Below are positions 33,212 to 53,367 of a stretch of DNA of 64,000 nucleotides, one piece after another. The notes beneath the pieces were generated by a model. That model had not been told where the DNA came from. It ran no database searches and saw only the letters and a list, made by a program, of their open reading frames with translations. A program made the position numbers and the translations under genes. Position 1 is the stretch's first letter; the number at the start of each line of letters is the position of its first letter. Source of the stretch: Amycolatopsis lexingtonensis (GTDB taxonomy: Bacteria; Actinomycetota; Actinomycetes; Mycobacteriales; Pseudonocardiaceae); the NCBI RefSeq assembly GCF_014873755.1, contig NZ_JADBEG010000001.1, forward strand, positions 6,856,501 to 6,920,500, given 5' to 3'.

Positions 33212-33838
33212 GTGGCTCAGATCGACCTCCGGCCCGTCCGGATCACCCGTGACCCCGCCCGCCGCAGCGTGCAGCTGCTCGCGGGCCTCGCCCTCTACGG
33301 CACCAGCGTCGCCCTCGTCACCCGGGCCGGCCTCGGCCTCGAGCCGTGGAGCGTGCTGGCCGAAGGCGTCCTGAAGCACACCGGCCTGAGTTTCGGCACG
33401 GTGACCGGCCTGATCTCGGTGGTCGTGCTCCTGCTGTGGATCCCGCTGCGCCAGCGGCCCGGCATCGGCACCATCGCGAACGTCGTCGTCATCTCGGTGA
33501 TGGTCGACGCCGTCCGCGCGGTGGTCCCCGACCAGCACGACCTGGCCTGGCAGATCGCGCTGCTGGCCGGCGGCATCGCGCTGAACGGCGTCGCGACCGC
33601 CACCTACGTCGGAGCCCGGCTCGGCCCCGGCCCCCGCGACGGCCTGATGACCGGCCTCGCGGGCCGCACCGGCTGGTCGGTCCGGCTGGTGCGCACCGGC
33701 ATCGAGGTCACCGTGGTCGTCGTCGGCTTCTTCCTCGGCGGGACGGTCGGGGTCGGCACCGTGCTCTACGCGCTGGCGATCGGCCCGCTCACCCAGGCGC
33801 TGCTGCCGTACGTGGTGTGGCGCGAGCGCGCCGCCTAA
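33212..33838 (+). CDS. YczE/YitT-family membrane protein
   Basis: A 208-residue membrane protein with about five helices. RSVQLLAGLALYGTSVALVTRAGLGLEPWSVLAEGVLKHTGLSFGTVTGLISVVVLLLWIPL is the YczE-type opening, and VGARLGPGPRDGLMTGLAGRTGWSVRLVRTGIE is the central loop. In other bacteria the gene stands divergent from a MocR regulator, as here. The transported or sensed molecule is unknown. GTG 33212 is the last start that keeps the first helix. Its end overlaps the convergent Clp-N gene by four bases. Confidence 0.87.
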   Translation: MAQIDLRPVRITRDPARRSVQLLAGLALYGTSVALVTRAGLGLEPWSVLAEGVLKHTGLSFGTVTGLISVVVLLLWIPLRQRPGIGTIANVVVISVMVDAVRAVVPDQHDLAWQIALLAGGIALNGVATATYVGARLGPGPRDGLMTGLAGRTGWSVRLVRTGIEVTVVVVGFFLGGTVGVGTVLYALAIGPLTQALLPYVVWRERAA

Positions 33839-34362
33839 CCGGCCTTGCGCTGTTCGACGACCCGGCGCAGCGTCGCGTAGTCGGCGCCGCGCCGGGCGAG
33901 GACGTCGTCGGTGCCGCGCTGCTGGGCCAGCGCGAGCAGGATGTGCTCCTGCCCCAGGTGCTTGTCGCCCAGCCGGACGGCTTCCTTGACGCTCAGCTCG
34001 AGCGTCTTCTTCGACTGTGCGGTGAAGGGGATGTGCCCGCGCTTCGCCGGGCCCAGCCGGCCGGCCAGCGCCCCCTCGCCGTGGGTCTGCTCGACGCGCT
34101 CGACGATCTGCTCGACGTCGATGCCGAACTCGGTGAGGGCCTCGGCGTCGGCGTCGCTGACCCCGCCCCGGCGCCGGGTCCGCGCCAGCTCCTCGACGAT
34201 GTCGTCGGTGGCGACCCCCAGCTCGGCGAGCAGCGGGACCTCGCCCTTGACCAGCCCGGCGAGCAGGTGCGCGGGCCCGATCTCCACCGAACCGGACTGG
34301 CGCGCCACGATCTGCGCTTCGACCACCGCCTGGCGGGCGTCGGCCGTGAACCGTTCGAACAT
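33835..34362 (-). CDS. stand-alone Clp N-terminal (Clp_N) domain protein
   Basis: A 175-residue protein made only of a double Clp_N domain, with no AAA+ module. First repeat: MFERFTADARQAVVEAQIVARQSGSVEIGPAHLLAGLVKGE. Second repeat: IPFTAQSKKTLELSVKEAVRLGDKHLGQEHILLALAQQRGTDDVLARRGADYATLRRVVEQ. In ClpC1 this domain binds adaptors and antibiotics such as cyclomarin. GGGAGG stands before ATG 34362, and the ATG shares one base with the stop of the HTH gene (TGATG), so translation is coupled. Compared with the fused gene at 52581, this is the split form. It lacks the part that would unfold substrates, so it probably acts as a sensor or decoy. Confidence 0.9.
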   Translation of the reverse strand: MFERFTADARQAVVEAQIVARQSGSVEIGPAHLLAGLVKGEVPLLAELGVATDDIVEELARTRRRGGVSDADAEALTEFGIDVEQIVERVEQTHGEGALAGRLGPAKRGHIPFTAQSKKTLELSVKEAVRLGDKHLGQEHILLALAQQRGTDDVLARRGADYATLRRVVEQRKAG

Positions 34363-34571
34363 CAGTGCCTCCCGTACTTCTTGTGCACGGCCTGCCGGCT
34401 GACCCCCAGCTCGGCGGCGATTTCCTGCCACGACCAGCCGTGCACCCGCGCGCTGCGCACCTGCACGGCCTCCAGTTGTTCCAGCAGCCGCCGGAGCGCG
34501 GCGACCGCGCGCAGCCCCACCCGGGGATCGCGATCACCGGCCCTGGCCGCCAAATCCGTCGCTTCCGTCAT
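34362..34571 (-). CDS. small helix-turn-helix protein, partner of the Clp_N protein
   Basis: A 69-residue protein, helical throughout, ending in the helix-turn-helix RVHGWSWQEIAAELGVSRQAVHKKYGRH. The recognition helix resembles that of the ClpC2-like fused protein (SWTEIGKSMGVTKQAAQKRF). The chain stops exactly where the fused protein continues into its Clp_N domain. No clear ribosome site precedes ATG 34571; the nearest operator half-site begins three bases upstream, so the message may be leaderless. The paired inverted repeats upstream argue for autoregulation. Confidence 0.85.
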   Translation of the reverse strand: MTEATDLAARAGDRDPRVGLRAVAALRRLLEQLEAVQVRSARVHGWSWQEIAAELGVSRQAVHKKYGRH

Positions 34572-34573
34572 GC

Positions 34574-34618
34574 TGTCAACCTACGTTGACATCGGCGCCC
34601 TGTCAACCGAAGTTGACA
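34574..34618. promoter_or_regulatory. paired GTCAAC/GTTGAC operators of the split HTH/Clp_N locus
   Basis: TGTCAAC-N4-GTTGACA occurs at 34574-34591 and again at 34601-34618, centres 27 bases apart. The first ends two bases (GC) before the HTH start codon. The same arrangement with 28-base spacing is found upstream of the fused ClpC2-like gene at 53321-53367. Confidence 0.85.
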
Positions 34619-34661: not shown

Positions 34662-35447
34662 ATGCCCGAGATCGCGATCGCCGAGCGGGCCGGGGTGGGC
34701 GCCGACGGCCACCCACGCCCCACCGAGGACCACGTCGTCGTCCTGGACAACGCGGTGCTGGTCCTCGACGGCGCCACTTCGTCGGACCCGTCCCAGCCGC
34801 CCGGCGGCTGGTACGCCGAGCGCCTCGCGCGGCACCTCGGCGACGCACTCCGCGCCGCGCCCGAAGCCGATCTGGCCGAAGCGCTCACCGGCGCGATCGG
34901 CGAGGTCAGTGCGGAAAACCGGCTGCGACCCCGGCAGTCGCCGTCCAGCACGGTCGCGGCCGTGCGCTGGCTCGGCGACCGGGTCGACGCGCTGGTGCTG
35001 GCCGACAGCCCGGTGGTCGGGTTCGGCGGCTTCGGCGTCGACGTCGTCTCCGACGACCGCCTCGCCCGGCTGCGGCGGCGCGGGCTGCTCCAGACCGGCG
35101 CCGACGTCCGCCGCCGCCGCAACGCCCACGACGGGTTCTGGGTGGCCGAAGCCGAACCGGGCGCCGCCGCGCACGCCGTCCGCCGCAGCTGGCCGCGGGC
35201 CGACGTCGAAGCCGTGCTGCTGGCCAGCGACGGCGTGTCCATCGGCGTCGACCAGTACGAACTGTTCGACTGGCGCGAGGTCCTCGCGATCACCCGCACC
35301 GACGGTCCGGACGCCGTCATCGACGCCGTCCGGACCGCGGAGAAGCAGGATCCGGACGGCGAGCGCTGGCCGCGCCCGAAGCGCCACGACGACCAGGCGC
35401 TCGTCCTGGTCGACTTCACCTCCGGGGGAATTCAGGGTCTTCCCTGA
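34662..35447 (+). CDS. PP2C-like serine/threonine phosphatase domain protein
   Basis: A 261-residue protein. GVGADGHPRPTEDHVVVLDNAVLVLDGATSSD resembles the first metal-binding strands of PP2C. SSTVAAVRWLGDRVDALVLADSPVVGFG matches the second sheet, AVLLASDGVSIGVDQYELFDW corresponds to the conserved ASDGhs motif, and HDDQALVLVDF to the final acidic pair. It lacks the usual ADGMGG in canonical form, so activity is probable but not proven. ATG 34662 is used; GTG 34659 is adjacent. It is divergent from the HTH/Clp_N pair. Confidence 0.78.
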   Translation: MPEIAIAERAGVGADGHPRPTEDHVVVLDNAVLVLDGATSSDPSQPPGGWYAERLARHLGDALRAAPEADLAEALTGAIGEVSAENRLRPRQSPSSTVAAVRWLGDRVDALVLADSPVVGFGGFGVDVVSDDRLARLRRRGLLQTGADVRRRRNAHDGFWVAEAEPGAAAHAVRRSWPRADVEAVLLASDGVSIGVDQYELFDWREVLAITRTDGPDAVIDAVRTAEKQDPDGERWPRPKRHDDQALVLVDFTSGGIQGLP

Positions 35448-52580: not shown

Positions 52581-53318
52581 TCACTGCCCGCGGGCGGCGA
52601 GGATCTCCGCCAGCACCTCCAGGATCTTCGCTTCGGCCTTGTCTTTCTTGACGCCGAGGCCGTCGAGCACCTCGAACCCGGCGCCCTCCCGCTGTTCCAG
52701 CAGCGCCAGGAGCATGTGCTCGGTGCCGATGTAGTTGTGGCCCAGCCGCAGGCCCTCGCGCATGGTCAGTTCGAGGGCCTTCTTGGCGCCGCCCGAGAAC
52801 GGCACCGGGTTCGGCACGGGCTCGACCCGCTCGGGCAGCCGCGCTTCGGCGGCTTCGCGGACGGCGTCGAGCTGGACGCCCTGGGCGAGGATCGCGCCCG
52901 CCGCGAGTGCCGCGGGTTCGGCGAGCAGGCCCAGCACGATGTGCACGGTGTCGATCTCGGGACTGCCGTTGTCCACGGCCGACTTCTGGGCCTCGACGAT
53001 CACGTGCCGCGCCCGGTCGGTGTAGCGGCCGTAGACGCGTTCGATCGCGCCGGAGGGGTCGCCGCCGGGGTCCACCTTCGGCACGAACCGCTTCTGGGCG
53101 GCCTGCTTGGTGACGCCCATGCTCTTGCCGATCTCGGTCCACGACGCCCCGGAGCGCCGGGCCTGGTCGACGAAGTGGCCGATCAGGTGGTCGGCCACCT
53201 CGCCGAGGTGTTCGCCCACGTAGACGGCGTCGGACAGCTGGGCGAGGGCGTCCTTGTCGTTGTTGCTCTTGATCGCGCTGATGAGGTCGTCGAGTTTGAC
53301 GTTGGCAGGAAGGTCCAT
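52581..53318 (-). CDS. ClpC2-like regulator: helix-turn-helix fused to Clp N-terminal domain
   Basis: A 245-residue protein. Residues 1-75 are helical and end in the helix-turn-helix SGASWTEIGKSMGVTKQAAQKRF. Then follow two Clp_N repeats: ERVYGRYTDRARHVIVEAQKSAVDNGSPEIDTVHIVLGLLAEP and VPFSGGAKKALELTMREGLRLGHNYIGTEHMLLALLEQ. There is no ATPase module. The plan equals M. tuberculosis ClpC2 (Rv2667), reported to bind ClpC1-directed compounds such as cyclomarin and to regulate itself. ATG 53318 lies two bases from paired GTCAAC/GTTGAC operators identical in layout to those of the split pair at 33835-34571. Confidence 0.92.
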   Translation of the reverse strand: MDLPANVKLDDLISAIKSNNDKDALAQLSDAVYVGEHLGEVADHLIGHFVDQARRSGASWTEIGKSMGVTKQAAQKRFVPKVDPGGDPSGAIERVYGRYTDRARHVIVEAQKSAVDNGSPEIDTVHIVLGLLAEPAALAAGAILAQGVQLDAVREAAEARLPERVEPVPNPVPFSGGAKKALELTMREGLRLGHNYIGTEHMLLALLEQREGAGFEVLDGLGVKKDKAEAKILEVLAEILAARGQ

Positions 53319-53320
53319 GC

Positions 53321-53367
53321 CGTCAACTGTAGGTTGACGATCTTCTGTCGTCAACCGCGAGTTGACG
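53321..53367. promoter_or_regulatory. paired GTCAAC/GTTGAC operators of the ClpC2-like gene
   Basis: CGTCAAC-N5-GTTGACG occurs at 53321-53339 and 53349-53367, centres 28 bases apart. The first ends two bases (GC) before the start codon. The second overlaps the last codons of the ferredoxin-reductase gene on the same strand. Confidence 0.88.

Follow-up and report, generated by a model that had tools for sequence, protein, structure and literature searches.

Two adjacent genes in the 64,000-nucleotide stretch of Amycolatopsis lexingtonensis DNA analysed here (the window; the genome comprises 10.7 Mb on one contig) encode a small helix-turn-helix (HTH) protein and a free-standing Clp_N protein, and we consider there to be an even chance that together they form a two-protein system that regulates itself and both senses and soaks up ligands of ClpC1. 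More tentatively, and with somewhat less confidence than in that first proposal, we suggest that the pair represents a phylum-wide, possibly ancestral, ClpC1-ligand sensor in which the HTH protein reads DNA, a one-base difference in operator spacing insulates the circuit from ClpC2, and the division into two proteins gives the decoy a free N-terminus, and with it access to ecumicin-type ligands that are poorly bound by fused ClpC2.

Both genes lie on the minus strand. The first (34362..34571) encodes 69 residues with Pfam HTH and sigma-70 region 4-like matches, proposed here to be a dimeric autorepressor, and its AF2 model (pLDDT 94) consists of a long helix and a C-terminal HTH. The second (33835..34362) encodes 175 residues with Clp_N as the only Pfam match (E 1.1e-16), i.e. 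with no AAA+ module, and is proposed to be a mimic of the ClpC1 N-terminal domain (NTD). The HTH stop codon and the Clp_N start codon have one A in common (TGATG), and a Shine-Dalgarno sequence for the Clp_N gene (GGGAG, 34369..34373, minus strand) lies within the final codons of the HTH gene. Values of dN/dS (NG86, 25 close relatives, one of 26 having been left out for its length) of 0.071 for the HTH gene and 0.178 for the Clp_N gene indicate that both are under purifying selection and are thus real proteins. An earlier note on this DNA, made by inspection, had described adjacent 69- and 175-residue genes with a one-base overlap, and the open reading frames, Pfam matches, substitution rates and the sequence of the junction agree with that description.

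The same order, an HTH gene followed by a Clp_N gene, is found at all 170 loci compared (163 unique), with the one-base overlap at 145 of them; these loci span Amycolatopsis, Streptomyces and their relatives, and the pair also occurs in deeper actinobacteria. Ninety were selected from 150 relatives by strength of Clp_N match, 14 weaker standalone-type Clp_N matches being left out of this set, and 80 are named loci found via the HTH alone (the best 80 of 304); one HTH frame among the 170 is without a normal start at the expected place. GGGAG stands 6 nt 5' of the Clp_N ATG at 144 of 170 loci and some Shine-Dalgarno-like motif at 169, and no such motif precedes the HTH gene at any of the 170. 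Median identities across 78 Amycolatopsis loci are 99% (HTH) and 60% (Clp_N); relative to the window, the HTH proteins of 71 Streptomyces/Embleya loci are 90-97% identical (median 94), a figure that leans high because these loci were chosen by HTH similarity, and their Clp_N proteins have a median identity of 42%.

Beyond these groups, among the matches listed for a phylum sample of 296 genomes, the HTH was detected at E <1e-20 in 29 and the fused protein described below at E <1e-40 in 18. A same-strand Clp_N match is present at 31 of 40 deep loci taken down the HTH ranking of this sample, and L285 looks like Clp_N by eye. Also among the matches listed, 17 genomes outside the class carry the HTH at E <1e-20, of which 16 have no match to the fused-type query (P0003) above the level of full-length ClpC1, the one genome with a fused-type match being G389. 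The two-gene form is therefore possibly ancestral, a suggestion that rests on these 17 genomes, in which a divergent fused gene could hide.

Divergent from the pair, and starting beside its operators, is a PP2C-like phosphatase gene (34662-35447, plus strand) that is conserved within Amycolatopsis only. It accompanies 77 of 79 loci of the Amycolatopsis set (one of the 79 being another genus), but only 1 of 11 loci from other families or orders; in the named set L201-L273, which includes two Amycolatopsis loci, it is found beside 2 of 73. A YczE-like neighbour is similarly present at 78 of the 79, and neighbours of the two kinds are rare outside the set (1-2 of 11 and 1-2 of 73), from which we take the two-gene operon to be the unit. 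The PP2C gene was considered as a second target, and its scarcity beyond the Amycolatopsis set rules it out as part of the conserved unit. A Pfam scan of 14 neighbouring proteins gave no pointer to a cluster for a Clp-targeting peptide, leaving unsupported here the idea that the antibiotic sensed might be the organism's own.

A fused HTH-Clp_N paralogue of the ClpC2 type (52581..53318, minus strand, 245 residues, Clp_N E 4.1e-22) lies 18.7 kb from the pair, so that, as previously noted, this one Amycolatopsis genome has two ClpC2-like loci. Split-type Clp_N matches occur in 78 of 80 Amycolatopsis genomes (exceptions G024 and G040) and fused matches likewise in 78 of 80 (exceptions G011 and G029); counted from coordinates, the two are 14-27 kb apart in 60 of the 76 genomes having both, whereas 7 genomes have them on separate contigs and 9 a long way from each other. 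The relationship between pair and paralogue is looser than the end-to-end match originally claimed: the HTH parts of the two can be aligned over only 47 profile columns (96.8%, hhalign), with 13 of 29 residues identical by BLASTP and the first ~23 residues without alignment, and the Clp_N parts are 32% identical over 153 columns, with 41 gap columns. Nor is the pair merely the fused protein split in two, since the two forms have operators of different classes and different N-termini, an additional helical element sets them apart, and two-gene loci occur widely across the phylum. A recent break of a fused ClpC2 gene was likewise ruled out, the pair being a family with its own operator class across the phylum sample.

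That the pair is a toxin-antitoxin module, with the HTH protein as antitoxin and Clp_N as a toxin disturbing Clp proteolysis, seems to us very improbable. Among solved structures, the HTH profile is best matched by RelI, the RelS-RelI antitoxin (E 8.2e-5, compared with 0.064 for the ClpC2 N-terminal domain), and the RelI authors propose that RelI arose from ClpC2 (PMC13284704); the likeness is limited to the HTH part, and RelI is not among the VIA matches listed. Against this, the partner is a Clp_N domain and not a RelE-like nuclease, the Clp_N protein has no PADLOC match, and its occurrence next to conserved neighbours in 78 of 80 genomes of the genus makes the pair look core rather than mobile.

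Two perfect GTCAAC-N4-GTTGAC palindromes lie over the promoter of the pair, the distal (34602..34617) covering a -35 box (TTGACA, 34601..34606, minus strand) and the proximal (34575..34590) a -10 box (TAGGTT, 34578..34583, minus strand) placed 17 bp away and 6 nt before the HTH ATG, such that a leaderless transcript is expected. Taking the best of several offsets per locus, -10 boxes of the form TAnnnT are found at 169 and -35 boxes of the form TTGAC[AG] at 168 of 170 pair loci, 17-18 bp apart and overlapped by the operators; by these best-fitting boxes, the -10 ends 6-7 nt before the HTH ATG and transcripts would again be leaderless. The fused gene has two comparable palindromes (proximal 53322..53338, distal 53350..53366), and the equal upstream layout proposed in the earlier note holds for the two palindromes over -35 and -10 and for the leaderless ATG, although the spacer is 5 bp rather than 4 and the outer base differs.

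This difference in spacing is a consistent one. All 254 perfect sites at pair loci (spacings of 1 to 11 scanned) are N4, a perfect operator being absent at 14 of the 170 loci, and allowing up to two mismatches (spacings 2 to 7) yields 340 N4 sites, 10 N7 and no other spacing; at the 40 deep loci, all 24 perfect sites (spacings 2 to 8), at 21 loci, are N4. By contrast, all 177 perfect sites at fused genes, at 89 of 90 loci, are N5, as are all 23 at 14 of 20 further fused loci (down to 33% identity). Relaxing the search to at most two mismatches gives 180 N5 sites, one N3 and no N4 at the first 90 fused loci; of the 20 further loci, 19 then have N5 and none N4. The outer base on the left is T at 208 of the 254 pair sites, whilst most fused sites are flanked by C and G.

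Gene loss provides a natural, if imperfect, test of the pairing between operator class and gene type. Perfect N4 sites are absent from the two Amycolatopsis genomes that lack the pair, and perfect N5 sites from the two that lack the fused gene; yet G029 and G252 have the HTH with no perfect N4 site genome-wide, and G172 carries two N5 sites at other places although it has no fused match. Of the 17 perfect N4 sites in 14 fully scanned genomes, 16 are at the pair, by position, and a rough open reading frame scan found no clear gene at the remaining one (in G305). A larger N4 regulon was considered and rejected, as the only two perfect N4 sites of the A. lexingtonensis genome are those of the pair and, with up to one mismatch, 5 sites compare with 5 for a backwards control. 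Other N5 sites are present in most of the 14 genomes. In Amycolatopsis, GTCAAC-N5-GTTGAC recurs ~20 bp ahead of a frame that by eye looks TetR-like (L334, L337 and L339, in G000, G003 and G060), which may reflect another regulator with the same half-site or a second ClpC2 target. In three Streptomyces-family genomes (L340, L341, L343), GTCAACAGCCTGTTGAC, also an N5 palindrome, is found repeatedly within a frame that by eye looks MarR-like.

As judged from sequence, it is likely that the HTH, and not Clp_N, reads the operator, an assignment that departs from the one published for ClpC2. Taylor et al. place the DNA site of ClpC2 in its C-terminal domain, report that R185A/R189A abolish DNA binding and describe an N-terminal crystal fragment comprising residues 4-72 (PMC10030653). 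The end of this fragment aligns to V69 of the fused protein in the window, just before the HTH recognition helix, and neither "HTH" nor "helix-turn-helix" occurs in the main text of that article. Nine deep HTH loci are without a Clp_N match; five have no perfect N4 site, and the four that do (L305, L306, L310 and L311) are our reason for regarding the HTH as the likely reader. The R185A/R189A result argues the other way, unless the two residues provide an additional contact; in split Clp_N proteins the second of these arginines is not conserved (R in 29 of 163). At L310 and L311 (G368 and G410, family f22) a lone HTH relative with a perfect N4 site at its own promoter is followed by an ABC transporter gene (identified by Pfam for L310 and by eye for L311), so that the same kind of DNA reader may there serve an exporter.

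Comparison of the Clp_N protein with the ClpC1 NTD, as envisaged in the earlier note, showed the fold to match and the groove to be largely kept. The AF2 model (pLDDT 92) matches ClpC1-NTD structures with a Foldseek probability of 1.00, at 32-35% sequence identity to the solved domains. In ClpC1 numbering, and out of 163 split proteins, R10 and V13 are present in 163, F2 and E3 in 162, L88 in 158, F80 in 156, L92 in 153, K85 in 149 (R in 11) and E89 in 126; H77 (104), Q17 (84) and V14 (75) are variable. The window's protein has all three of the cyclomarin contacts F2, F80 and E89. Groove codons have a dN/dS of 0.027, against 0.178 for the whole Clp_N gene, with no sign of diversifying selection among the 25 close relatives. 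Separately, Mycobacterium phages Myrna (gp251) and Phabba have a Clp_N gene of their own; its product, with 39% identity to the Clp_N query (P0004) over the matched stretch, is possibly a phage-borne mimic of the ClpC1 NTD.

Conservation of this kind would fit any natural ligand rather than antibiotics in particular, and the strong purifying selection on the groove, with no mark of an arms race, sits comfortably with a different reading that we regard as possible but less probable than a sensor and sponge: that the same circuit is an endogenous proteostasis regulator in which Clp_N, as holdase or competitor, keeps unfolded substrates or adaptors from ClpC1 by titration during heat or other stresses, with antibiotics incidental. 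Occurrence of the pair in many lineages of the phylum sample, beyond known producers, points the same way, as do reports that ClpC2 of Mycobacterium tuberculosis (Mtb) rises ~twofold with heat and slows ClpC1-dependent degradation of casein (PMC10030653). It is at the N-terminus that proteostasis alone falls short, as it leaves unexplained why Met1-Glu3 is kept in split proteins and lost in fused ones. Alternatively, the free domain could act on ClpC1 itself, docking at the AAA1 anchor of ClpC1's own NTD to activate or lock the protease, with the HTH protein only setting its level. We think this unlikely, isolated NTDs being expected to bind weakly in trans. The conservation of K85, an NTD anchor in the ClpC resting state (PMC12583610), speaks for such docking, but this residue also contacts cyclic peptides (PMC12583610), so its conservation is not specific.

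Returning to the sensor and sponge, the N-terminus is one place where split and fused proteins part. Met1 is the true N-terminus of the split protein (its presence in 163 of 163 follows from picking ATG), and the same position is internal in the fused protein; Glu3 is found in 162 of 163 split but 1 of 87 fused proteins, in which position 2 is F in 50 and Y in 37 (three of 90 fused proteins escaped the motif search, Ala being seen there). A methionine preceding phenylalanine is kept by methionine aminopeptidase. An F2Y ClpC1 NTD has been crystallised with cyclomarin (3wdd, by entry title), so Tyr at position 2 need not entail loss of cyclomarin. Ecumicin contacts Met1 and Glu3 of ClpC1 and needs a free N-terminus, deletion of Met1 or insertion before Phe2 costing 62-82-fold (PMC7193532), and an ecumicin analogue binds the Mtb ClpC2 C-terminal domain ~110-fold more weakly than the ClpC1 NTD (43.8 uM and 0.39 uM, respectively; PMC12913811). 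On this basis the split decoy, and not the fused one, is predicted to cover ecumicin-type ligands.

A second distinguishing feature is an extra helical element of Clp_N. Codons 63-83 within it (RRRGGxSxAD..AL..xGID, 34114..34176, minus strand) have a dN/dS of 0.029, and their columns hardly vary and have no counterpart in ClpC1 up to residue 72. Model helices span Clp_N residues 52-64 and 70-77, and deep homologues, inspected by eye, mostly keep the DA.AL..xGID-like part and not RRRGG. We consider this element a candidate contact for the HTH protein.

In the mechanism we favour, the HTH protein, probably as a dimer, would bind the two N4 palindromes over its own leaderless promoter and shut the operon. 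The Clp_N gene, with its own Shine-Dalgarno sequence, would supply a free copy of the ligand-binding domain of ClpC1, complete with ClpC1's N-terminus and perhaps in excess of the HTH protein, and peptides or unfolded proteins that would otherwise occupy ClpC1 would be bound by it. The state of Clp_N would then be passed to the HTH protein, perhaps via the extra helical element, lifting repression such that more Clp_N is made as decoy. Splitting would both free the Met1-Phe2-Glu3 end and uncouple the dose of sponge from that of repressor, and the operator, one base shorter, would keep this circuit apart from that of fused ClpC2. Ligand binding need not mean derepression, as in Mtb cyclomarin only, and not ecumicin or ilamycin, induces ClpC2 (PMC12913811). 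Of the decoy and sensor reading first offered in the earlier note, the two loci, the largely kept groove residues and the autoregulatory palindromes thus stand; the part to be set aside is the casting of the pair as merely a split ClpC2, and the idea of the organism's own antibiotic gains no support from the neighbouring proteins.

If this is correct, many Streptomyces and Amycolatopsis have, besides ClpC2, another and apparently undescribed means of sensing molecules directed at ClpC1; the weak effect of fused ClpC2 against ecumicin would gain a testable explanation, and the two regulators would form a natural pair with sites one base apart in spacing. As the pair naturally separates DNA reader from ligand sensor, it can also settle where ClpC2-type proteins read DNA.

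No description of the split pair was found among the open-access journal articles listed, and its closest known counterpart is mycobacterial ClpC2 (Rv2667 type), shown by experiment to repress itself, with an N5 operator (CGTCAAC-n5-GTTGACG), and to be released by cyclomarin, for which the sensor and sponge idea is already published (PMC10030653). Both systems combine an HTH-type reader (as assigned here) with a ClpC1-NTD-like domain lacking AAA+, and both have GTCAAC/GTTGAC half-sites, usually in two palindromes over -35 and -10, a leaderless layout and most of the groove residues. Unlike ClpC2, the pair comprises two proteins, with an N4 rather than an N5 spacer, an outer T rather than C, a true Met1-Phe2-Glu3 end, an extra helical element, an unrelated N-terminus on the HTH protein and no conserved second arginine in the C-terminal domain; as it has neither the single chain nor the N5 operator of ClpC2, we class it as a ClpC2-type variant and not as ClpC2. 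RelS-RelI (Mtb Rv2663-Rv2664, PMC13284704) likewise has a small protein with a related HTH in a two-gene operon, but its partner is a RelE/BrnT-like nuclease where that of the pair is Clp_N. Finally, the split Clp_N protein shares with the ClpC1 NTD its fold, groove residues and free MFER N-terminus, and differs from it in standing alone and in carrying the extra helical element.
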